In this document: in pieces, positions 3,575 through 17,907 of the stretch
Numbering within the stretch: the stretch's first letter is position 1
Layout: each line of letters starts with the position of its first letter
Assembly: GCA_947177715.1 (NCBI GenBank)
Contig: CAMWVM010000005.1
Location: forward strand, 1-19,252
DNA from: an uncultured Ruminococcus sp.
GTDB lineage: Bacteria > Bacillota > Clostridia > Oscillospirales > Ruminococcaceae
Direction: 5' to 3'
DNA: 19,252 nt
The notes under the pieces: generated by a model
What the model was told of the DNA's origin: nothing
What the model saw: only the letters and a program-made list of their open reading frames with translations
Databases searched by the model: none
Program-made: the position numbers and the translations under genes

Positions 3575-6500
3575 GTGCTTAAATTGATTTCCGGCGGAAC
3601 TCATAGTGAAAGAGAAAAGTTGTTTGTGAATTTAATTAAGCAAGCATCAATGGCGAATAAGGATATACTTGTCATAATTCCTGATCAGTTTTCATTTGAA
3701 TATGATAGAAAACTATATTCTGTCCTTGGAGCTAAGGATTTTAATAGAATTCAAACAGTAGGATTCAATCGATTAGCTGAATTAATGTCCAAAAAGTATG
3801 GTAGAAATTCAAAGAAAATTGCTGATGATAACGATAAAATTATAACGATGTATAAAGCCGTTAAAAAGCTTAAATCCACAGGCGATATAAAATTTTATGG
3901 TAAATCATTAAAAAAATCATATTTTATTAATGATGCGATTGATTTAGTATCTGAACTTGTGCAATCTGGCATAACTCCAGAGGAGTTAAGACTTGCATCT
4001 GAAAACACAAATGGTTCTTTGCAGATGAAGCTATATGATATGTCAAGATTGTATGACTTTTATTTGGATGAACTTGAAATTGCAGGTTTAAAAGATTCAT
4101 TGACAGCCTTGGGCGAATGCTGTGAATTAGCAGAGAACAATGGGTTTTTCAAAGAGAAATTTGTGTTCATCAATTCATTTTCAGATTTTTCAGTAGATGA
4201 GTTAAAGCTAATTGAGTGCATTATGAATCAATCAGCACAGCTTACAGTTTCTTTAGTTATTTCACATGAGAATAAATCCAGAATGAATCAAACTCCTTTT
4301 GCTGAAACTATACGAACTGCACAGCATCTTAAAAATATAGCCATGTCCAAAAATGTCTATATTGATGAAATTGATGTCGGACCAGCTGAGAATAATTGCT
4401 CTTATGAAATAAATCATCTGGATGAAAATATTTATTGTACTAATCCTGTTGTATATTATCAAAACGAAAACATTAAAATAATTTCAGGAACAGATATTTA
4501 TGAGGAAACTGAATATGTGTGTTCTGAGATTTCAAGACTTGTAAGAGAAGAGAAGTTTAAATATAAAGATATTGCTGTTCTTTTAGGCAATGTTCAGGAA
4601 GTTGCTTCGGTTTTAGAGGGAACTTTTGAACGTTATGAGATTCCTTATTTTATTGATTGTAGTCAAGGTGCTGGACAATCATCTTTAGTATTATATCTAA
4701 AAAGCATATTTGATTGTGTTGTTACAAAAAAATGGAACACGGAAAAAATACTGAAATATATAAAATCACCTCTTTCTGATTTTCTTGATTACGATATCTG
4801 TGATATAGAGAATTACTGTATTACATGGAATGTAGAAGGCAATATGTGGGACAATGAATTTACAGCTCCTGCCGATGACATAAGCAATTTGAATAGGATC
4901 AATGAAACAAGAAAGCAAATTATGCAACCGCTTTCTGAGTTTAAAAATTCTTGCACGAATGCTTCGGCTAAGGATATTTGTCTTGCCTTATATAAATTGT
5001 TAGATGAAATTAAATTATCACAGCAAATGTTTTCTAAAATAAAAATAGCCAGTTCAGATAGTGAAAAGGATTTTGAGCTTGCAAGAGAGTTTAAACAGCT
5101 TTGGAAAACTGTGCTATCTGCTGTGTCTGCTATTTATAATAGATTTGACGATGAAAAAATATCTTTGAGAGAATTCAGCGATATTTTCAATTTAATGATA
5201 TCTGGAATGACTGTTTCCAAACCGCCTCAAACTGTAGACTGTATAAGAATTGCTTCTACAAACCATTCAAGGCTGTCAGATGTTAAGATTGCATTTGTAA
5301 TGGAGGCTAATTCCGGCGTTTTCCCAGCAGATATCAGTAATAACGGACTGCTGACCAATAATGATAAGAAAAAGCTTGAAGAATTGAAGCTTAATGTATC
5401 AAGCAGTGCCATGCGTCAAATTGAAGGGGAAAAACTTAATGTATATCTTGCTCTCACTATGCCGGAGGACAAGCTTTATGTTACATATTCAGAATCGGAT
5501 TTCCAAGGTTCATCAAAGCGCCCCTCAATTATTATTTCTATGCTTAAAAGGATGTTTGGAAACATTGAAACTAAAGCCCAGGATATTCCTATTGACTTTT
5601 TTTGTACATCATATAGAACAGCTTTTTATAAGTACCTTGAGAAATCAAGTGACAGAAATTCATTAATTGCTTCAATTCGTGAATCGCTTAAATATTCTGA
5701 TTTTTATGAGTCAAAGTTGAATTATGTAAGTTCTGCGTCCAAAAAGCAAGAACATAAACTGTCGGATGAAATGGCAAAAAAACTTTTTTTCAGTCAAGAT
5801 ATGAACTTGTCTGCAACAAGAGTGAAGGACTATTATTCATGCCCGTTTTCTTATTATTGTAAATATGGATTGAAATTAAAAGCACCATCACCGGTAGAAA
5901 TTAATCCGATTAATACAGGAAATCTAATTCATAGCTGTTTTGAAAAAATTATGAGTATAAAGGATCAAAACGATAAAAAAACATATAATAATGATTTTCC
6001 TAAGCTGACGGATAAAGTAATTAAAGCACGAATTCATGAGGAATTTATTAATTATACTAATGAATTTTTAGGCGGTAATTTTGGAAAAACTCCGTCTTTC
6101 ATTGCAGCTATGAATCGACTTGAAAACTCTGCATTTTTTGCGGTCAAAAATATTCAAACAGAATTTGCAGACTCTCTTTTTATTCCCCAAGCCTTTGAGT
6201 ATAACTTAACTAAAGATAATGGAGAAAGTATATTACAGTTAAAACTTGATGATGATATAAAAATAAATATTCGAGGCAGTATTGACCGTGCAGATGTGTA
6301 TAAAGCAGAAAACGGTGATCAGTATATAAGAATTGTAGATTATAAAACTGGTGATACAACTTTGCGACTTGAAGAACTTTATAATGGTTTGAATTTGCAG
6401 ATGTTAATTTATTTGTTAGCTGTTACACAAAGAATTAACGATTTGAATCAGAAAGGGAATTTGAAACCGTCAGCAATACTTTATTCTCATATCAATTTTG

Positions 6501-7015: not shown

Positions 7016-8197
7016 TTAATTTAATTGTTTCAAAGCATCAATAAGTTGTTCTGTGCGATCAGTTTTCTCCCAAGCAACATCTAAATCTTCACGTCCCATG
7101 TGTCCATAAGCTGCAAGTGCTTTATATTGAGGCTTTCTTAGTTCTAAATCTTTGATTATAGCAGCTGGTCTTAAATCAAATACTTTTTCTACCGCTTTTG
7201 CAATCTGTTCATCAGTGTAACTTCCAGTGCTAAATGTATCGATTGTAATTGATACTGGATTCGCAACACCGATAGCATAAGCAAGTTCAACTTCACACTT
7301 TTTAGCAAGTCCTGCTGCAACAATGTTTTTAGCAACATATCTTGCAGCGTATGTTGCTGAGCGGTCAACCTTTGTAGGGTCTTTACCGGAAAATGCACCG
7401 CCACCGTGACGTGCATATCCACCGTAAGTATCAACAATGATTTTTCTGCCAGTAAGTCCGCTGTCGCCTTGTGGTCCACCTACGACAAATCTTCCTGTTG
7501 GATTTATAAAATATCTCGTATCGTCGTCTAACAGATTAGATGGAACAACTGCTTTTACAACATAATTTATTAAGTCTTCTCTTATTTGCTCAAGTGAAAC
7601 TGCGTCATCATGCTGTGATGATACAACAACTGTATCAATTCTTATTGGCTTTCCATCTTCGTATTCAACAGTGATCTGTGTTTTTCCATCAGGACGAAGA
7701 TAGGGGAGTGTACCGTTCTTTCTGACTTCTGTAAGTTTAATTGCAAGCTTGTGAGCTAACGAAATAGGCATTGGCATAAGTTCTGGAGTTTCATCACAGG
7801 CATAACCAAACATTATACCCTGATCGCCAGCGCCAGTATCATATTCATTCTCTTCACGACCTTCAAGAGCATTGTCAACTCCCATTGCAATATCAGGAGA
7901 TTGCTTGTCTATTGTAGTGAAAACGGCACAAGTGTGTCCGTCGAAACCATATTTGGCACGGTCATATCCAATTTCAACAACGGTATCTCTAACTATTTGC
8001 GGAATGTCTACAGAAGCATTTGTTGTGATTTCACCCATGCACATTACCATACCTGTTGTAGTAACCGTTTCACATGCCACCCTTGACATTGGATCCTGTG
8101 CAAGCATAGCATCAAGTACAGCGTCGGAAATCTGATCGCATATTTTGTCTGGGTGTCCTTCTGTTACTGATTCTGAAGTAAAAACATATCTTGACAT
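7016..8197 (-). CDS. metK: S-adenosylmethionine synthetase
   Basis: 393 residues, standard family length. It makes SAM from methionine and ATP in the cytosol. Visible signatures are GHPDK near the N-terminus with catalytic His15, the [12 protein letters not shown] methionine/ATP signature near residue 121, and the Gly-rich GGGAFSGKD with KVDRS near residue 260. The ATG at 8197 is preceded on the minus strand by AGAGG at 7-base spacing. A SAM-I riboswitch with terminator precedes it, so the product represses its own synthesis. It converges on addB and ends at the shared hairpin. Identification is unambiguous. Confidence 0.98.
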
Positions 8198-8283: not shown

Positions 8284-8298
8284 GAATTCTCACAAATT

Positions 8299-8401
8299 CC
8301 TCATCTCTCGGAAAATACCGCAGGAATTAGCACCTTAACTGTAGTAATACGTTAGGTTGCCGGGCTTCAAAGGACCTGTTCCTCCACCACTCTTGATAAG
8401 G
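8299..8401 (-). ncRNA. SAM-I (S-box) riboswitch aptamer
   Basis: On the minus strand the conserved S-box blocks occur in order: CTTATCAAGAGTGGTGGAGG, then ACAGGTCC, then GAAGCCCGGCAACC, then AAGGTGCTAATTCC, then GAGAGATGAGG. P1 is closed by CCTTATC (8401-8395) with GATGAGG (8305-8299), seven pairs with one G-U. Family knowledge: SAM binding stabilises P1 and lets the downstream terminator form, shutting off the gene. The target is metK. Confidence 0.97.
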
Positions 8402-8422
8402 CTATTTAATTTTAGCATTATT

Positions 8423-12003: not shown

Positions 12004-12564
12004 GTGCATTCCGATTTTTTGTTAATTAGAAGAATGAAACAGGGCGAAGAAGAAGCATTTGATTTGTTCGTCCATAAATACTATAAGGAAATTTTGGCTT
12101 ATTGCGGTTATCGTTGCTCTGATAAAGAATATGCTGAGGACATAACCCAGGAAACCTTTGTGCGTTTTTTTGCAAAATTGTCTGATTACAATCACAGAGG
12201 AAAAACAAAGAATTATTTATATACAATAGCTGGCAATTTATGTAAAGACTATTTTAAAAAAATAAAAGATATACCTGTGGAAGAATCGGAATTAAGCACA
12301 CGAATAGAATTTGTAGAACATCCGATGGAAAATGTATTAAATAAGCTTACGGTTGAATGGGCGTTAAAACAATTACCCAATGAATTAAGTGAGGTGGTTA
12401 CTCTATACTATTTTCAAGAACTGAAACTTACGGAGATTGCTGATATATTACACATAAGTGTTCCATTAGTAAAATATCGGCTAAAACAAGCAAAGATGCG
12501 GTTAGGAAAACTGTTTCAAGAGGAGGGAAGCTATGAATCTGGAAGAACAACTTATGACTTATAA
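12004..12564 (+). CDS. ECF-type sigma-70 family RNA polymerase sigma factor
   Basis: 186 residues with the two-domain ECF layout. Region 2 (about 10-75) includes the YAEDITQETFVRFF stretch that binds core polymerase and the -10. Region 4 (about 115-170) ends in a helix-turn-helix (LKLTEIADILHISVPLVKYRLKQA) for the -35. Region 3 is absent, as expected. The start is GTG with GGAGG at 5 bases. It overlaps the next gene, a membrane protein, by 32 bases. ECF factors are usually held by a co-transcribed membrane anti-sigma, so the next product is the natural candidate. The downstream ABC transporter and VanY-like enzyme suggest a cell-envelope or antibiotic-stress regulon. The specific signal is unknown. 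Confidence 0.93.
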   Translation: MHSDFLLIRRMKQGEEEAFDLFVHKYYKEILAYCGYRCSDKEYAEDITQETFVRFFAKLSDYNHRGKTKNYLYTIAGNLCKDYFKKIKDIPVEESELSTRIEFVEHPMENVLNKLTVEWALKQLPNELSEVVTLYYFQELKLTEIADILHISVPLVKYRLKQAKMRLGKLFQEEGSYESGRTTYDL

Positions 12565-13297
12565 GAAAAGGGCACAGATGGAATCAACGGAGGAAAAAAT
12601 ACAGGAAACTATCAGAAAATCAAAGGAAGTCTTTTTTGCTTCGGAGCATGAAAGAATGTTATCCTACCGTGAGTTTTTATGGTCGCAGTTTAAGTTGATA
12701 CGAAAAAGATGGTGGATTCTTCAATTTCTACTTTTGTTCATATTAGGAGCAATGCTTATATCTGCATATGAGGAAAGTTATGTCCAAAGAGGCATGGGGG
12801 TCATGGCATCTATATTTGTCATCCTTATTATTCCTGAACTTTGGAAAAACAGGTCATGCAATTGTATGGAAATAGAAGAATCGTCTTATTATTCTCTAAG
12901 GCAGATATATTCAGCGCATATGGTATTGTTCGGCATTGTAGATGTTTTCCTTCTTACTGTGTTTTGCGGAACAATGACAATAGGGCTGCATATTGAATTC
13001 ACAAGATTGCTTGTTCAATTTCTCATGCCAATGCTTGTGACGGCATGTATTTGTTTTGGCACGTTATGCAACAAATATATTATGAATGAAACCGTAGCAA
13101 TCATTTTATGTGTTTTGTGGTGTGCCATATGGTTGGTTATTGCTTTAAATGAAAAAATATACACAATGGTTACATTGCCAATATGGCTGATATGTATCGG
13201 TCTTTCATTTGGTTTCTTGTGCATCGCAGTTTACCGTACATTAAGTAATTGTGATAACTATTGGGAGGTAGGATTTGATGAAATTAGAATTGAATAA
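12533..13297 (+). CDS. Six-TM membrane protein with cytosolic N-terminus, possible anti-sigma or transporter partner
   Basis: 254 residues. The first 55 or so are hydrophilic and charged (a likely cytosolic helix, MNLEEQLMTYKKRAQM onward). Six hydrophobic segments follow at about 60-78, 86-103, 130-151, 158-178, 187-205 and 213-234, then a short acidic tail. No named family is recognised; similar unnamed proteins are remembered beside sigma factors and ABC transporters in Lachnospiraceae-type genomes, which could not be checked. It overlaps the sigma gene by 32 bases and the ATPase gene by 20. It could be an anti-sigma factor, with the N-terminus binding sigma, or a second permease-like subunit. 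AGGAGGG (12521-12527) lies 5 bases before the ATG. Confidence 0.85.
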   Translation: MNLEEQLMTYKKRAQMESTEEKIQETIRKSKEVFFASEHERMLSYREFLWSQFKLIRKRWWILQFLLLFILGAMLISAYEESYVQRGMGVMASIFVILIIPELWKNRSCNCMEIEESSYYSLRQIYSAHMVLFGIVDVFLLTVFCGTMTIGLHIEFTRLLVQFLMPMLVTACICFGTLCNKYIMNETVAIILCVLWCAIWLVIALNEKIYTMVTLPIWLICIGLSFGFLCIAVYRTLSNCDNYWEVGFDEIRIE

Positions 13298-14165
13298 TTT
13301 AACGAAAAAATTTGGGGATTTTACTGCCGTAGACCATATAAATCTGACGATGAATAACGGTGTTTATGGATTGTTAGGGGTAAATGGTGCAGGAAAGACC
13401 ACTTTAATGAGAATGCTGTGTACTTTGCTTAAACCGACAAGCGGAAGTATTGCCTGCAATGGAAAAGATATATTAAAAATGGACGGAGAATACAGGAAAC
13501 TATTGGGATATTTGCCACAGGATTTTGGTTTTTATCCTGAGTTCACAGTGCAAGATTATCTACTTTATATTGCAACAATTAAAGGGCTTCGCCCAGCTAT
13601 AGCGAAAAGAAAAGTGAAAGAATTGATTCCACAGGTAGGGCTCACAAAAGTTGCCAATAAAAAAATGAAAAAGTTATCTGGCGGTATGAAACGGCGGGCT
13701 GGAATCGCACAGGCTATGTTGAATGACCCTAAGATTTTAATACTTGATGAGCCAACAGCAGGGCTTGACCCAAATGAAAGGATTCGTTTCCGTAATCTGA
13801 TAAGTGAACTTTCAGAAGAACGTTTGGTGTTATTGTCTACACACATTGTTTCTGACATTGAGTATATAGCAAATGAAATTTTGCTGATGAAAGACGGAAA
13901 AATCATGCATAAAGGGACGGCAGATGAAATCATAGATTCTATGACAGAAACAGTCTGGGAATGTCTTGTAGATAAAAATATGGTATCCGATTTCATGAAA
14001 AAATATAAAATTTCCAATATGAAATCAGAGCCGCAGGGGGTAATCTTACGAATCATTTCGCACGAGAAACCGTCATCTGATGCGGCATGTGTGGAAGCAA
14101 ATCTGGAAGATGTGTTTTTATATTATTTTGGAGAGAAGGCAGGTGATGAAAATGCTGCAATTTGA
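13278..14165 (+). CDS. ABC transporter ATP-binding protein (BcrA/CcmA-like)
   Basis: 295 residues. All ABC ATPase motifs are present: Walker A GVNGAGKTT (34-42), Q-loop Gln81, signature LSGGM (133-137), Walker B ILILDEPTAGLDP with Asp157 and Glu158, and H-loop His189. The roughly 85-residue C-terminal extension is typical of ABC-2 type drug or peptide exporters. It should energise the permease encoded next. ATG 13278 was chosen with GGGAGG at 9 bases; an in-frame TTG lies at 13275. Overlaps with both neighbours show one tightly coupled operon. Bacitracin- or lantibiotic-type export is plausible, but the substrate cannot be read from the sequence. Confidence 0.95.
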   Translation: MKLELNNLTKKFGDFTAVDHINLTMNNGVYGLLGVNGAGKTTLMRMLCTLLKPTSGSIACNGKDILKMDGEYRKLLGYLPQDFGFYPEFTVQDYLLYIATIKGLRPAIAKRKVKELIPQVGLTKVANKKMKKLSGGMKRRAGIAQAMLNDPKILILDEPTAGLDPNERIRFRNLISELSEERLVLLSTHIVSDIEYIANEILLMKDGKIMHKGTADEIIDSMTETVWECLVDKNMVSDFMKKYKISNMKSEPQGVILRIISHEKPSSDAACVEANLEDVFLYYFGEKAGDENAAI

Positions 14166-15363
14166 AATAAAGAAAGTTTTTTTAAAATTCAAGAATAGGA
14201 TGGCAATGATTCTTTTGCTAATCATACTAATTGCAACAAGCATTTTGACAATGAACAGAGTAGAGTATGTGGATGCGGATGGAAACACTTCGAGCGGTAT
14301 CGTAGCGGCAAGGAACCTCAGCACCGAACAGAACAAGTGGGCGGGCTATCTTACGGAAGATGTGTTTGCAGAAGTAGTTAAGGAAAATGAGCAGATAAAT
14401 AATTCTAAAGAAGCGTTGTCAGATGATATTCAGGAACAGAATAAGGCGTATGCGAAAAAGCAGGGCATATCTGGAATTGCCGACCTGATTAACAATGCAT
14501 TCAGCGAGTGGAGGGATTACAATTCTTATGCAATCGACAACGTTTCCACAGAAGAAGCAAAGCAGGTTTATGAAAAAAGGATTTCCGCATTAAAAGGATA
14601 TTTGGATTCAGGAGAGGAAACGTTCACGGATGCACAGAAGGAATTTTTGATTCAGCGTTATGAAAATCTTAAAACGCCTTTTTATTATGAATATATAGGT
14701 GGTTGGAGTGCATTGCTGCAAAATATATCAACATTTATTTTGATGTTGGCATTGATAATAGGTTTTTTTGTATCTGGCATATTTTCGGATGAATTTCAGA
14801 TAAAAGCGGATTCAATTTTTTTCTCATCGAAATTGGGAAGGAATAAAGCGGTTGTTTCAAAAGTGAGTGCGGTTTTTTTGATTACGACTGTCCTTTATGT
14901 TGTTTTCGTGCTTTTATATACCGTTATTGTGCTCCTGATGTTGGGGGCAGATGGTGCGAACTGTCCAATCCAGCTTGAGTTGTGGAGGAGTACTTATAAT
15001 GTTACCCTTTTTCAGGCATATCTTCTGATTGTCGCCGGCGGTTATGTAGGCACATTGTTTGCTGCCATAATTTCTATGATTGTATCGGCGGCATCACGTT
15101 CAACTGCAACAGCAGTTATTGTTCCGTTTATGATATTATGTGCATTTCCTTTTTTAAGCAGGATTATCACATTACCAGGGATATGCTCGTTCTTTCCAGA
15201 CCAATTGCTGGAGGTATATTCAAGCGTTAAAGAGTTTGACCTTGTAGAGTTGGGCGGCAAGGTAATGAGTGTTGTAACAGTTATTATTCCTGTGTATATG
15301 GCAATGTGTTTATTTTTATTGCCTATACTGTATTATATTTATAAAAAGTCAGAGGTTAAATAA
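14146..15363 (+). CDS. ABC-2 type transporter permease
   Basis: About 405 residues. One N-terminal TM segment (about 18-36) is followed by a large hydrophilic, probably extracytoplasmic region (about 37-190), then about five or six TM segments (near 193-213, 239-266, 288-315, 320-345 and 372-398). This architecture is common in ABC-2 permeases paired with drug or peptide exporter ATPases. The ATG at 14146 is preceded by AAGG at 6 bases; ATG 14152 is an alternative, and a longer in-frame extension to 14080 lies inside the ATPase gene and is unlikely. It overlaps the ATPase gene by 20 bases and its TAA directly abuts the next ATG. Confidence 0.88.
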   Translation: MKMLQFEIKKVFLKFKNRMAMILLLIILIATSILTMNRVEYVDADGNTSSGIVAARNLSTEQNKWAGYLTEDVFAEVVKENEQINNSKEALSDDIQEQNKAYAKKQGISGIADLINNAFSEWRDYNSYAIDNVSTEEAKQVYEKRISALKGYLDSGEETFTDAQKEFLIQRYENLKTPFYYEYIGGWSALLQNISTFILMLALIIGFFVSGIFSDEFQIKADSIFFSSKLGRNKAVVSKVSAVFLITTVLYVVFVLLYTVIVLLMLGADGANCPIQLELWRSTYNVTLFQAYLLIVAGGYVGTLFAAIISMIVSAASRSTATAVIVPFMILCAFPFLSRIITLPGICSFFPDQLLEVYSSVKEFDLVELGGKVMSVVTVIIPVYMAMCLFLLPILYYIYKKSEVK

Positions 15364-16059
15364 ATGAAATATCATAGGAAACGAAAATCCTGTAAATTAG
15401 GAATCATATTTTTTCTTATGGCGGCTGTTCTAATGTGTGTATTGGCAATAAACCATATAGTTCCTGTCCCTAATTTTTTTGGAGATATAAATCGTAATAT
15501 TGCGAATACAGACAATGGATGGAACTTAATCCTTGTAAACCATGACAACTATATACCCGATGATTATGAGGTGGAATTAACAGAACTGTCAAATGGCGAG
15601 AAAGTGGATTCTAGAATTTATCCTGAATTACAGGAAATGTTTAATGCGGCAAGAGCAGAGGGTTTAGGCTTGCATGTTGCGGCAGGATACAGGACACAGG
15701 AAAAGCAGCAGGAATTGTTAGATGAGAAAATAGTAGCATATGAAAATGAGGGTAACTCAAAATCTGAAGCTAGAAAACTTGCTGAGCAATGGGTTGCTAT
15801 TCCAGGAACCAGTGAGCATCAATTGGGCATTGCTGTTGATATAAACGCTGATGCTGCAAGTTCCGGAGATGAGGTATATAACTGGCTTGCCGAAAATGGA
15901 TACAAATATGGATTTATAAAACGCTATCCTTCAGATAAAACCGACATAACAGGTATCATTAACGAACCGTGGCATTATAGATATGTTGGAAAAGAAGCAG
16001 CAAAGGAAATATATTTGCGGGGAATTTGTTTAGAAGAATATATAGAATCAATAACATGA
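15364..16059 (+). CDS. VanY-like M15 family D-Ala-D-Ala carboxypeptidase
   Basis: 231 residues. A basic start and one TM anchor (about 11-29) place the enzyme outside the membrane. The M15B zinc site is complete: SEHQLGIAVDIN gives His152 and Asp159, and EPWHYRYVG gives Glu201 (general base) and His204. GYRTQEKQQELLD is also family-typical. Such enzymes trim the terminal D-Ala from peptidoglycan stem peptides; VanY lowers glycopeptide target levels. The ATG follows the permease stop with no gap, with AGAGG 8 bases upstream, so it is the last gene of the sigma operon. No vanH/A/X or vanS/R genes are present, so glycopeptide resistance cannot be claimed. General envelope remodelling is the safer reading. 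Confidence 0.93.
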   Translation: MKYHRKRKSCKLGIIFFLMAAVLMCVLAINHIVPVPNFFGDINRNIANTDNGWNLILVNHDNYIPDDYEVELTELSNGEKVDSRIYPELQEMFNAARAEGLGLHVAAGYRTQEKQQELLDEKIVAYENEGNSKSEARKLAEQWVAIPGTSEHQLGIAVDINADAASSGDEVYNWLAENGYKYGFIKRYPSDKTDITGIINEPWHYRYVGKEAAKEIYLRGICLEEYIESIT

Positions 16060-16088
16060 TAATGTGAGCTAATAATGGATGGAAATTT

Positions 16089-16244
16089 ATGAGCGGATAT
16101 AAGGAAATAGGTATCTGGGGGCGGCACTTGGACTATCTGAAGCAGCATCGCAGGGTTACATACACCAATCTTCTCACATGCGGCAAGCTTAATGCTTACC
16201 TTGCCCTCTTCCTGTTTACTGTTAGAAGTGGGTTAAAATTCTAA
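16089..16244 (+). pseudogene. tnpV: Truncated TnpV transposon protein
   Basis: The 51-residue reading frame contains EIGIWGRHLDYLKQHRRVTY and then TNLLTCGKLNAYLA, matching the central part of the roughly 120-residue TnpV protein of Tn4451-like elements. Its role in transposition is not settled. After KLNAYLA (about 16205) the frame departs from the family and stops, and the N-terminal third is missing. There is no good ribosome site before the ATG. A deletion after KLNAYLA is the likely cause, since the continuation is not found in the other frames nearby. Confidence 0.78.
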
Positions 16245-16350: not shown

Positions 16351-16379
16351 TTGACAAAAGGGATTATTTCATGTAAAAT
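16351..16379 (+). promoter_or_regulatory. Strong promoter of the attenuator-methyltransferase transcript
   Basis: TTGACA (16351-16356), a 17-base spacer and TAAAAT (16374-16379). The expected start is near 16386, giving a leader of about 250 nt before the methyltransferase. A strong promoter followed by a terminator is the layout of attenuation-controlled genes. Confidence 0.88.
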
Positions 16380-16427
16380 AAATGTATAAAACTAAACAAA
16401 AAAGGTGATGGAAGTCCGGCGTATCAG

Positions 16428-16493
16428 ATGTCACATAATCGGTGGCATGGGTATGACTGGAAAAGAGTAGATAAAATCAATTCAATAGGTTAA
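16428..16493 (+). CDS. Candidate leader peptide (21 codons) in the attenuator
   Basis: The frame encodes MSHNRWHGYDWKRVDKINSIG and its codons cover all of attenuator segment 1 (16463-16480). Its ribosome site is poor: the AGGTGAT-like sequence ends 18 bases upstream. A competing leader frame starts at ATG 16408, or GTG 16405, and ends with TAG at 16468-16470, also inside segment 1; it reads MEVRRIRCHIIGGMGMTGKE and has a very close AAGG. Either could place a stalled ribosome over segment 1. Which one is translated cannot be decided from the sequence. Confidence 0.4.
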   Translation: MSHNRWHGYDWKRVDKINSIG

Positions 16494-16593
16494 AACTGAC
16501 TGTTTTTACAGTTTCGTTTTTATGCCTAATGTTTGATTTTATTTTACTCTTACTATATCTTCCTCATTTGAAAGATTAGCCGTAGAGTAAAAT
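16463..16593 (+). promoter_or_regulatory. Transcription attenuator with alternative pairings
   Basis: Segment 1 (16463-16480) pairs with segment 2 (16533-16551): ten perfect pairs (16471-16480 with 16533-16542) and seven more (16463-16469 with 16545-16551) around a small internal loop. Segment 2 can instead pair with segment 3: ATTTTACTC (16541-16549) with GAGTAAAAT (16585-16593), extended by TAC/GTA past one bulged base. Segment 3 includes the 5' arm of the strong terminator, so the two states exclude each other. A smaller hairpin (16493-16514) followed by a T-run sits inside the first loop. A ribosome over segment 1 would free segment 2, form the antiterminator and allow readthrough. Confidence 0.72.
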
Positions 16594-16610
16594 CTACGGC
16601 TTTTTCTTTT
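16578..16610 (+). terminator. Strong intrinsic terminator before the methyltransferase gene
   Basis: AGCCGTAGA (16578-16586) pairs perfectly with TCTACGGCT (16593-16601) around a 6-base loop and is followed by a T-rich run to 16610. It stands only 24 bases before the methyltransferase start and downstream of that gene's promoter, so it must be conditional. Part of its 5' arm and its loop are captured by the alternative antiterminator pairing. Confidence 0.92.
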
Positions 16611-16634
16611 GCCCACTGAAAGGAGAAGAAAGCC

Positions 16635-17465
16635 ATGTTAAACAATATTATCAGATATTTGGAAAAGCCCCCTCTTTACACAAAAACCAAAGGCGAATTT
16701 TGGAATGATAAATATATTTCCAAACAAATGCTCAAAGCACACCTTGACCCTGAATTTAACGGAGCAAGCAGGAAACTAAAATTTATAGATAAGTCGGTGG
16801 CATGGATAAAAGAAATCGTACCATCAACGGATTATCCGTTGCTTTTGGACATTGGGTGCGGACCAGGAATATATGCTGAAAGGTTCTGTAAACAGGGTTA
16901 TCAAGTAACGGGTATTGATTTTTCAAAAAGGTCTATAAACTATGCTAAAAACTCTGCATTGAAGAAAAGATTAGACATTACGTATCTTTATCAAAATTAT
17001 TTGGATATGAAGTTATATAAATCTTTCGATTTTGCCACGATGATATATTGCGATTATGGTGCGTTGTCAACGCTTGATAGAAAAAACCTTATGCGTAAGA
17101 TATATCAGCATTTGAAGCCCAGTGCAAAGTTTTTATTAGATGTGTTTTCGTTGGAAACATATAATTCTTTTCAAGAAATGCAGACATGGGAAATTTGTAA
17201 TGATGGTGGTTTTTGGCGAGAAGATGGATATATCGCTTTATATGGGCATTACAAATATTTGAATTCCGTGACTTTAGAACAGACAACTATTATTTCAAAC
17301 GCAAATATAGAAACTTACTATTTATGGAATACCTGTTTTACCAAAGAAACATTAATTGAAGAAGCAAAAGAAGCAGGGTTTAAAGTATGTGGGGTCTTTG
17401 GGGATATTGCGGGAGAACCCTATCATAGAGATAGCCCTACCATTGCTATCCTTTTGGAAAAATAA
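16635..17465 (+). CDS. Class I SAM-dependent methyltransferase under attenuator control
   Basis: 276 residues. Motif I is clear: LLLDIGCGPGIYAERF, with Asp72 and the GCGPG loop (74-78); VTGIDFS follows as the ribose-binding acidic strand, and the DFATMIYCDYGALS region as motif IV. The C-terminal part has an aromatic-rich beta region (EICNDGGFWREDGYIALYGH) and ends in PTIAILLEK. The substrate is not evident: no rRNA methyltransferase signature such as Erm or a radical-SAM motif is seen. Similar methyltransferases are remembered, without proof, beside aminoglycoside-resistance genes in Gram-positive transposons. AAAGGAG (16619-16625) lies 9 bases before the ATG. The attenuated leader suggests induction by translation inhibitors, so a protective or drug-modifying role is a reasonable guess only. 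Confidence 0.85.
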   Translation: MLNNIIRYLEKPPLYTKTKGEFWNDKYISKQMLKAHLDPEFNGASRKLKFIDKSVAWIKEIVPSTDYPLLLDIGCGPGIYAERFCKQGYQVTGIDFSKRSINYAKNSALKKRLDITYLYQNYLDMKLYKSFDFATMIYCDYGALSTLDRKNLMRKIYQHLKPSAKFLLDVFSLETYNSFQEMQTWEICNDGGFWREDGYIALYGHYKYLNSVTLEQTTIISNANIETYYLWNTCFTKETLIEEAKEAGFKVCGVFGDIAGEPYHRDSPTIAILLEK

Positions 17466-17489: not shown

Positions 17490-17907
17490 ATGGCAACCTG
17501 CCGAGTAAAAAACGTAAATCGGCAGATTGACACTACCCTTGCGGAACGCCAATACGAGCTGTCCGCAAAGCAGAAACAGATTGAAAAGAACGAAAAGTGG
17601 ATTGGGAGCTTGACCGCGTGTTCCGCAAAATCTATGAATATAATATCAACAGAAAGCTGAATGGCGAACGCTTTTACAAGCTGTCAGACGGATATGAAGC
17701 CGAGCAGGAACAGTTAAAGTAGGAAATCGAAACCCTGACACGGAAGCGACCAAAGTTTCAAAGCTGATAGCCATCACCAAGAAATACACCCGCATTGACG
17801 AATTAACGCCTAAAAACCTAAACGATTTTGTGGACAAAATCGTAATCCATGAGCGTGAGAAAAAGGACGGGAAACGGACACAGGAAATGGTTGATATTTG
17901 TCACTAA
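17490..17907 (+). pseudogene. Broken C-terminal part of a large serine recombinase (TnpX/TndX-like)
   Basis: Three frames must be joined. The first carries RQYELSAKQKQIEKNEK (about 17490-17590). The second carries LDRVFRKIYEYNINRKLNGE, then RFYKLSDGYEAEQEQLK, then an in-frame TAG at 17719-17721. The third carries SKLIAITKKYTRIDELTPKN, then LNDFVDKIVIHEREKKDGKR and TQEMVDICH, ending with TAA at 17907. This is the coiled-coil and C-terminal region of site-specific serine recombinases that move Tn4451-like and conjugative elements. The N-terminal catalytic domain and zinc region are absent, and there are at least two frameshifts plus one stop, so the gene is dead. G+C looks higher than in the flanking chromosome, consistent with transfer. 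Confidence 0.85.

Follow-up and report, generated by a model that had tools for sequence, protein, structure and literature searches.

An RNA leader in front of a methyltransferase gene of an uncultured Ruminococcus sp. appears, from comparison with its relatives, to be a real, conserved and conditional terminator that is apparently undescribed. It lies in the window, by which we mean the whole stretch of 19,252 nucleotides that was analysed, where a promoter opens the stretch 16351-16610, an intrinsic terminator closes it and a leader of ~220 nt lies between the two; the gene for a class I methyltransferase comes next. The leader recurs in relatives and its pairings change in step there, which argues that it is not the product of chance. 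Its parts, their conservation, the compensatory changes and a recurrent Shine-Dalgarno element with a start codon can all be seen by comparing sequences, whilst the way in which the switch would be operated has to be argued from them.

Layout and predicted folding of the leader

All features of the leader lie on the forward strand. The consensus promoter of the original prediction is present as TTGACA and TAAAAT separated by 17 nt (16351-16379), from which a transcript would start near 16386. A promoter-like pair matching at least 9 of the 12 letters of TTGACA/TATAAT is found in 25 of 26 leaders (these are raw scores, without a chance control), and the best such pair ends 17-26 nt upstream of the start of the leader model in 20 of the 26. 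The 255 nt from 16380 to 16634 fold at -84.7 kcal/mol, against -49.3 +/- 4.3 kcal/mol for shuffled versions (z -8.28), and none of 200 shuffles is equally stable.

The long-range stem, the antiterminator and the terminator that had been predicted are all present at the positions foreseen for them. The stem, here P3, pairs segment 1 (16463-16480) with segment 2 (16533-16551) and has about 18 pairs in the predicted fold of the window locus. The antiterminator, which contains one bulge, would join 16541-16553, inside segment 2, to segment 3 (16582-16593), a stretch in the arm and loop of the terminator that imitates segment 1. The intrinsic terminator with its U-tract occupies 16578-16610, its hairpin (16578-16601, -15.0 kcal/mol) being followed by TTTTTCTTTT to 16610, and the ribosome-binding site of the methyltransferase gene (16619-16628) pairs with that U-tract in the fold. 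Two helices had been overlooked: P1, which pairs 16403-16414, including part of the Shine-Dalgarno element and the start of the upstream frame uORF1, with 16559-16569, and P2, a 5' hairpin at 16415-16461 that reads UCCGGC, a loop AUAAUC and a closing GGA. Since the fold adds these two, P1, P2 and P3 form a three-way junction.

The leader is a single copy in the window's genome. No family of Rfam 15 reaches its gathering score in it; eight matches appear at E up to 10, the best scoring 19.8 bits against a threshold of 60 and 18.9 bits against 61. Among the papers listed in searches of the open-access PMC literature none describes the leader.

Folding with and without segment 1 masked bears out the predicted switch in part, as shortened transcripts do refold and transcripts with the whole terminator do not. 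In transcripts cut after the terminator loop, where at least four expected antiterminator pairs were taken as the criterion, masking segment 1 lets the antiterminator appear in 21 of the 24 leaders, against four without the mask; it forms even unmasked in L141, L143, L145 and L167, and fails to form even with masking in L146, L147 and L157. When the whole terminator is folded at equilibrium with segment 1 masked, the terminator persists in all 12 leaders tested, and a partial antiterminator is seen only in L144 and L145 among them. A switch at equilibrium is therefore rejected for these 12, and because the terminator wins there despite the masking, any switch must be kinetic and decided during the copying of the RNA. 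A ribosome parked on the start codon alone was rejected as a trigger too, as this adds at most 2.9 expected antiterminator pairs (24 leaders).

Compensatory change and distribution of the leader

The comparisons of 24 leaders leave out L004, L005 and L007, which are near-identical to others, L151, whose terminator is altered, and L046, which was found later; for L142 and L166 the figures for segment 1 are approximate, the end of P2 having been placed a few bases early. In a swap test the pairing of each leader with its own partner strand was set against its pairing with the partners of other leaders, in the 24 leaders and then in 10 representatives less than 75% identical. Own partners pair more strongly for P1 (-8.53 against -6.84 kcal/mol swapped; 3/20000, representatives 21/20000), for P3 (-17.24 against -12.78 kcal/mol; 0/20000, representatives 0) and for the antiterminator (-11.58 against -8.37 kcal/mol; 0/20000, representatives 24/20000), so that the competing pairings originally proposed hold, by computation, across the 24 leaders. 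P1 is weak in L003, L142, L143 and L167. Because many leaders share one sequence type, the partner from the same leader frequently does not rank first.

Compensatory change also supports P2, where 88.3% of cells are paired (23 sequences, 17 pairs), 10 pairs have changed on both sides, and covariation stands at 0.467, against 0.301 in shuffled alignments (0/500) and at most 0.166 with slid partners. In an RNAalifold prediction from 12 leaders, 18 of 60 pairs have changed on both sides, and across the whole structure of nine close leaders there are 11 double-change pairs against 4.8 expected (0/500 shuffles), with P3 holding one such pair among 18. Segments 1, 2 and 3 have changed together, giving the types GAGTAAAATC, GGGATGAT (L143, L144, L145 and L167) and GTGGAAAAC (L140 and L141), and within each of GAGTAAAATC, GGGATGAT and GTGGAAAAC segment 3 mimics segment 1. 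The conserved letters are UYCGGC, an AAU in the loop of P2 and the GGA, with exceptions.

The leader is found at 29 loci counting that of the window, and its hosts are mostly Clostridia, a placement that we infer for part of the genomes; it also occurs in distant clades, namely Enterococcus and another class. With Blast and protein searches the leader was located ahead of methyltransferase homologues in plasmid records of Monoglobus and Enterococcus gallinarum, the only two plasmid records that stand out, and at five loci of Lachnospiraceae or of genera that presumably belong to them. A covariance model built from nine leaders, R1, matched 9 of 391 genomes of the window's class, of which six were kept after reading and three (G350, G302 and G263) were dropped as they lack the 5' domain. 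The same model matched 12 of 392 genomes of another order, all with the 5' domain on reading, 1 of 67 and 1 of 7 genomes in two further orders, both loci being already known, and 2 of 398 genomes in a sample of the phylum, one of them the window's own. A second model of the 5' domain only, R2, built from 23 leaders, matched 6 of 38 genomes of one family (one new locus), 1 of 4 of an order (already known) and 3 of 398 of the phylum sample (one new locus). Reverse-strand matches to R1 are not separate loci, as they arise because P3 is near-palindromic, and reverse-strand matches in E. coli upstream of yjhX (19.8 and 17.2 bits, E 0.16 and 0.58) were taken as chance.

Among viral contigs, 80 loci were kept of 112 relatives of the enzyme and one has the leader (L046, 67.2 bits); the 26 viral contigs with a pattern match hold it only in L046, and of two other patterns one gave none and the other L046 again. 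This locus, IMGVR_UViG_3300011689_000023, is filed as viral and carries the leader with a 42% identical methyltransferase and, by eye, a MerR-like regulator downstream; the contig may be mostly host DNA. Phages gave no match to leader plus gene and, with the leader alone, short weak matches, the best at E 0.7 among the matches listed.

Homologues without the leader, or without compensatory change where it occurs, had been named as evidence that would tell against the switch. Sixteen full-length homologue loci at 39-58% identity do lack the leader, two of the 16 having identical upstream sequence, as do two loci where the match covers just a portion of the methyltransferase gene; where the leader exists, however, its pairings compensate. 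It is present at 5 of 10 homologue loci in one set and at 5 of 18 matches in another, and methyltransferases as distant as those of L019 (49% identity) and L046 (42%) are preceded by it.

The downstream genes and their mobile setting

At 25 of the 29 loci the next gene belongs to the same methyltransferase family, the remaining four having a Mef-like efflux gene (two loci), a nitroreductase (one) and a mixed cluster (one). The efflux genes, in L140 and L141, encode MFS transporters that are akin to Mef macrolide pumps and fall below every curated cut-off, and the L140 protein shares 27% identity with Mef(H). The order in L157 is nitroreductase, then methyltransferase, and in L144 and L167 the methyltransferase is followed by a nitroreductase-like gene (by eye in L167). 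The mixed cluster is that of L142, from another class, where after ~400 nt there follow a glyoxalase-like gene, an acetyltransferase and an unrelated methyltransferase, and the link between leader and gene is weak. The methyltransferase begins several hundred nt further downstream in L156 and L166, and its frame looks broken in L150 and L151. In L151 the terminator region (4143-4183, reverse strand) has become a long hairpin (CTCTCAAACTTATCTTC ... GAAGATAAGTTTGAGAG) that unites segment 2 and the terminator region.

The gene of the window (16635-17465) encodes a class I SAM-dependent methyltransferase of 276 aa (Methyltransf_25, 1.2e-16). An AlphaFold2 model made with 43 sequences (pLDDT 88.5, pTM 0.86) resembles small-molecule and peptide methyltransferases: the best 50 of 1784 fold neighbours are methyltransferases of these kinds or uncharacterised ones, the closest including CypM, the bacillithiol methyltransferase NmbA, CcbJ and glycine N-methyltransferase, with TM scores (query length) of ~0.6-0.7 at 12-21% identity. 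CcbJ we take to be an N-methyltransferase of a lincosamide pathway. By sequence the best match in the PDB is 9rfr (E 7.3e-22), for which nothing relevant was found in the open-access PMC literature. None of the 20 NCBIfam curated families listed, which include no Erm model, reaches its cut-off, and the 23S rRNA G745 (RlmA-type) model scores 22.3 bits against a cut-off of 303.

The mobile setting that had been claimed is supported, with transposon remnants on both sides of leader and gene: a TnpV fragment at 16068-16241 (PF14198, 5e-09) and a DUF4368 fragment at 17698-17904 (PF14287, 3.4e-17), the latter a domain that presumably forms the C-terminal region of large serine recombinases. A recombinase gene precedes the methyltransferase gene in the plasmid record of Monoglobus. 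Just before the remnants in the window, 12004-16059 holds an ECF sigma factor, an ABC transporter ATPase with its neighbours and a VanY-like carboxypeptidase (286 bits with the vanY_BG model, cut-off 400), which are possibly one imported module. Elsewhere in the window a SAM riboswitch (RF00162, 80.9 bits) lies at 8298-8402 on the reverse strand, upstream of a gene (7016-8197) whose product looks by eye like a methionine adenosyltransferase.

Upstream frames, the proposed mechanism and its rivals

A Shine-Dalgarno element, AAAGGTGAT, lies at 16401-16409, where its pairing with the 16S tail ranks in the strongest 1.1% of background, and it is overlapped in the window by uORF1, a frame of 20 codons (MEVRRIRCHIIGGMGMTGKE*) that runs from ATG at 16408 to TAG at 16468-16470. 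A second frame, uORF2 (16453-16470, MTGKE*, or MGMTGKE* if read from 16447), passes over segment 1 to the same stop. The two leader frames of the original prediction are therefore both present in the window, with their shared TAG inside segment 1. Across relatives, the pairing of 16 nt at the 5' end with the 16S tail ranks in the top 5% of background in 23 of 24 leaders, and this strength is kept despite differing letters. Measured against shuffles that preserve columns and ignore kinship among the leaders, a start codon lies 3-10 nt upstream of UYCGGC in 23 of 24 leaders against 17.4 expected (6/5000; representatives 10 of 10 against 7.3, 84/5000), and a frame from the 3' strand of P2 has its stop in segment 1 in 22 of 24 against 14.8 expected (0/5000), with a frame over segment 1 in 8 of the 10 representatives against 4.4 (45/5000). 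A simulated ribosome that, after every stop, begins again at the closest start finishes within segment 1 in 18 of 24 leaders, in several of them by way of overlaps such as ATGA, TGATG and TAAGTG.

The peptide itself is another matter, and a conserved leader peptide was rejected, as frame, length and peptide all vary. uORF1 shares the register of UYCGGC in 14 of 24 leaders, the other 10 having it in another register or lacking a usual start; relative to the first base of the GGA that closes P2, its stop lies anywhere between 49 nt upstream and 26 nt downstream, and in more than half of the 24 it ends before segment 1. UYCGGC is retained in the window's clade although the frame has shifted there. 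In pairwise comparisons of 10 leaders the codon changes in uORF1 are mostly nonsynonymous (2 synonymous and 16 nonsynonymous in the three leaders of the MFS-type group, 5 and 23 in the four of the frame-A group, 2 and 20 in the three of frame B in the window's clade). The macrolide arrest motif R/K-x-R/K occurs in any upstream frame in only 15 of 28 leaders, which makes no rule. In L140 and L141, before the Mef-like genes, the frame over segment 1 ends in KRGKRK and KRGKHK just before the stop; these ends resemble the arrest motif and are to be taken as a lead, not a test. The claim that leader frames fall on segment 1 thus stands for the window, and the Shine-Dalgarno element and start codon recur in 23 of 24 leaders each, but a conserved peptide and a fixed stop do not. 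As peptide, frame and stop position are not kept, the classical leader-peptide version is only partly supported.

The tet(M) and erm(K) leaders belong to the attenuator class that the original prediction named. In its competing pairings the leader is predicted to work like those of tlrB, hflXr and cplR, and the intrinsic terminator between promoter and gene that marks this type is present in sequence and fold. A conserved leader peptide or arrest motif of their type was not found among the leaders compared, and for that reason the leader is not filed as a member. In Bacillus subtilis, tlrB (yxjB) encodes a 23S rRNA G748 methyltransferase controlled by proven ribosome stalling, with a leader peptide of 9 aa that has an RYR arrest motif, the stalled ribosome blocking the base of the terminator directly (PMC6851288). 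As there, a methyltransferase gene stands here behind a short frame led by a Shine-Dalgarno element and an intrinsic terminator; unlike there, conservation does not extend to the peptide, a junction is closed with P1 and P2, and the folds nearest to that of the modelled enzyme, among the best 50 of 1784, are those of small-molecule and peptide enzymes. The rli80-hflXr leader of Listeria monocytogenes has a 14-aa frame with an RLR motif (PMC6310831). It has in common with the present leader a terminator, an antiterminator and an anti-antiterminator that a short frame overlies, whereas no motif is kept here and the frames vary. The cplR leader of Clostridioides difficile has a single uORF with a conserved tripeptide MR[I/M] (PMC10201436). 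A 5' hairpin that holds the uORF, very short in cplR, and a terminator just upstream of the gene are common to both; here, by contrast, it is the site of the start codon and not the peptide that is preserved, and the frame that crosses segment 1 differs between leaders.

A further parallel is the topAI-yjhQ-yjhP operon of E. coli, where induction by antibiotics that target the ribosome depends on the uORF toiL, which answers several classes of ribosome inhibitor and acts via the topAI ribosome-binding site and Rho (PMC12121999). Unlike toiL, the present leader would use an intrinsic terminator and not control by Rho or a ribosome-binding site. Two loci, L043 and L169, have a methyltransferase between yjhX (topAI) and yjhP, where the published E. 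coli operon has yjhQ. In the one copy compared, from the yjhX-yjhP interval of a Salmonella plasmid, the methyltransferase is a distant homologue (31% over 173 residues), and in E. coli an annotated class I methyltransferase lies between yjhX and yjhP in 7 of 5426 genomes (by coverage), being a fragment in the one genome read. The tie of the present enzyme to the toiL operon is an association and not proof.

In the proposed mechanism, ribosomes would normally initiate at the 5' Shine-Dalgarno element, complete the mini-frames and depart, upon which P1, P2 and P3 would close the three-way junction, segment 1 would hold segment 2 and the terminator would form. A slowed or stalled ribosome would instead linger on segment 1, in the window within the frames that run from 16408 or 16453 to the stop at 16468-16470, and block its pairing with segment 2; the free segment 2 would then capture the 5' arm of the terminator as it emerges, allowing read-through into the methyltransferase gene. 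A ribosome brought to segment 1, directly or via overlapping mini-frames, is the likeliest trigger, one towards which we incline without great confidence. Under it we infer that ribosomes would be the signal, that antibiotics would slow them and that the enzyme would modify a toxic small molecule.

The main rival is a riboswitch, in which the junction would bind a small molecule, be it a substrate or product of the enzyme or an antibiotic, and would choose between P3 with the terminator and the antiterminator without ribosomes. It has in its favour that RNA structure and letters (UYCGGC, AAU, GGA) are kept and coding capacity is not, and that the same RNA precedes unrelated genes that could all detoxify. 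The conserved covarying domain fits it and the ribosome model alike. A riboswitch would, however, not need the strength of the Shine-Dalgarno pairing to be preserved while its letters change, P3 with its roughly 18 pairs is stable enough to form without a ligand, and Rfam offers no family at threshold. Furthermore, the junction can coexist with the terminator, so that a bound ligand would be expected rather to switch the gene off, which would be odd for detoxification, and we regard this rival as unlikely whilst taking it seriously. The conserved hairpin with its conserved loop would also suit an RNA-binding protein that causes antitermination from P2 or segment 1, but, judged by eye, the 18 regions listed have no single regulator gene that keeps turning up next to the leader, and the presence of the leader in clades as distant as Enterococcus and another class makes such protein control improbable. 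It would seem more improbable still that the leader is an unregulated terminator with a structured 5' end that hitchhikes with a mobile gene: the gene does sit between transposon remnants and equilibrium folding does terminate in 12 of 12 leaders tested, yet an unconditional stop 24 nt upstream would silence the gene, and the complementarity of segments 3 and 2, kept across divergent leaders, would be needless without regulation.

Returning to the ribosome as the trigger, a broader and distinctly speculative version would make the leader a mobile three-way-junction attenuator that senses ribosome occupancy independently of frame, through a relay of mini-frames to segment 1, and so answers many blocks of translation; it would drive a methyltransferase that inactivates inhibitors, and it also precedes efflux and nitroreductase genes. 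If the switch reading is right, the methyltransferase gene would be a candidate for a role in the response to translation-blocking antibiotics; were the riboswitch rival true, the leader would represent an apparently undescribed riboswitch class. If the ribosome model holds, a number of gut Clostridia would possess an inducible mobile gene cued by ribosome trouble, and the leader could be used to find its cue and hence what the enzyme methylates. As the same RNA stands before Mef-like pumps and a nitroreductase, candidate drug-response genes could be listed by their switch and not by protein homology.
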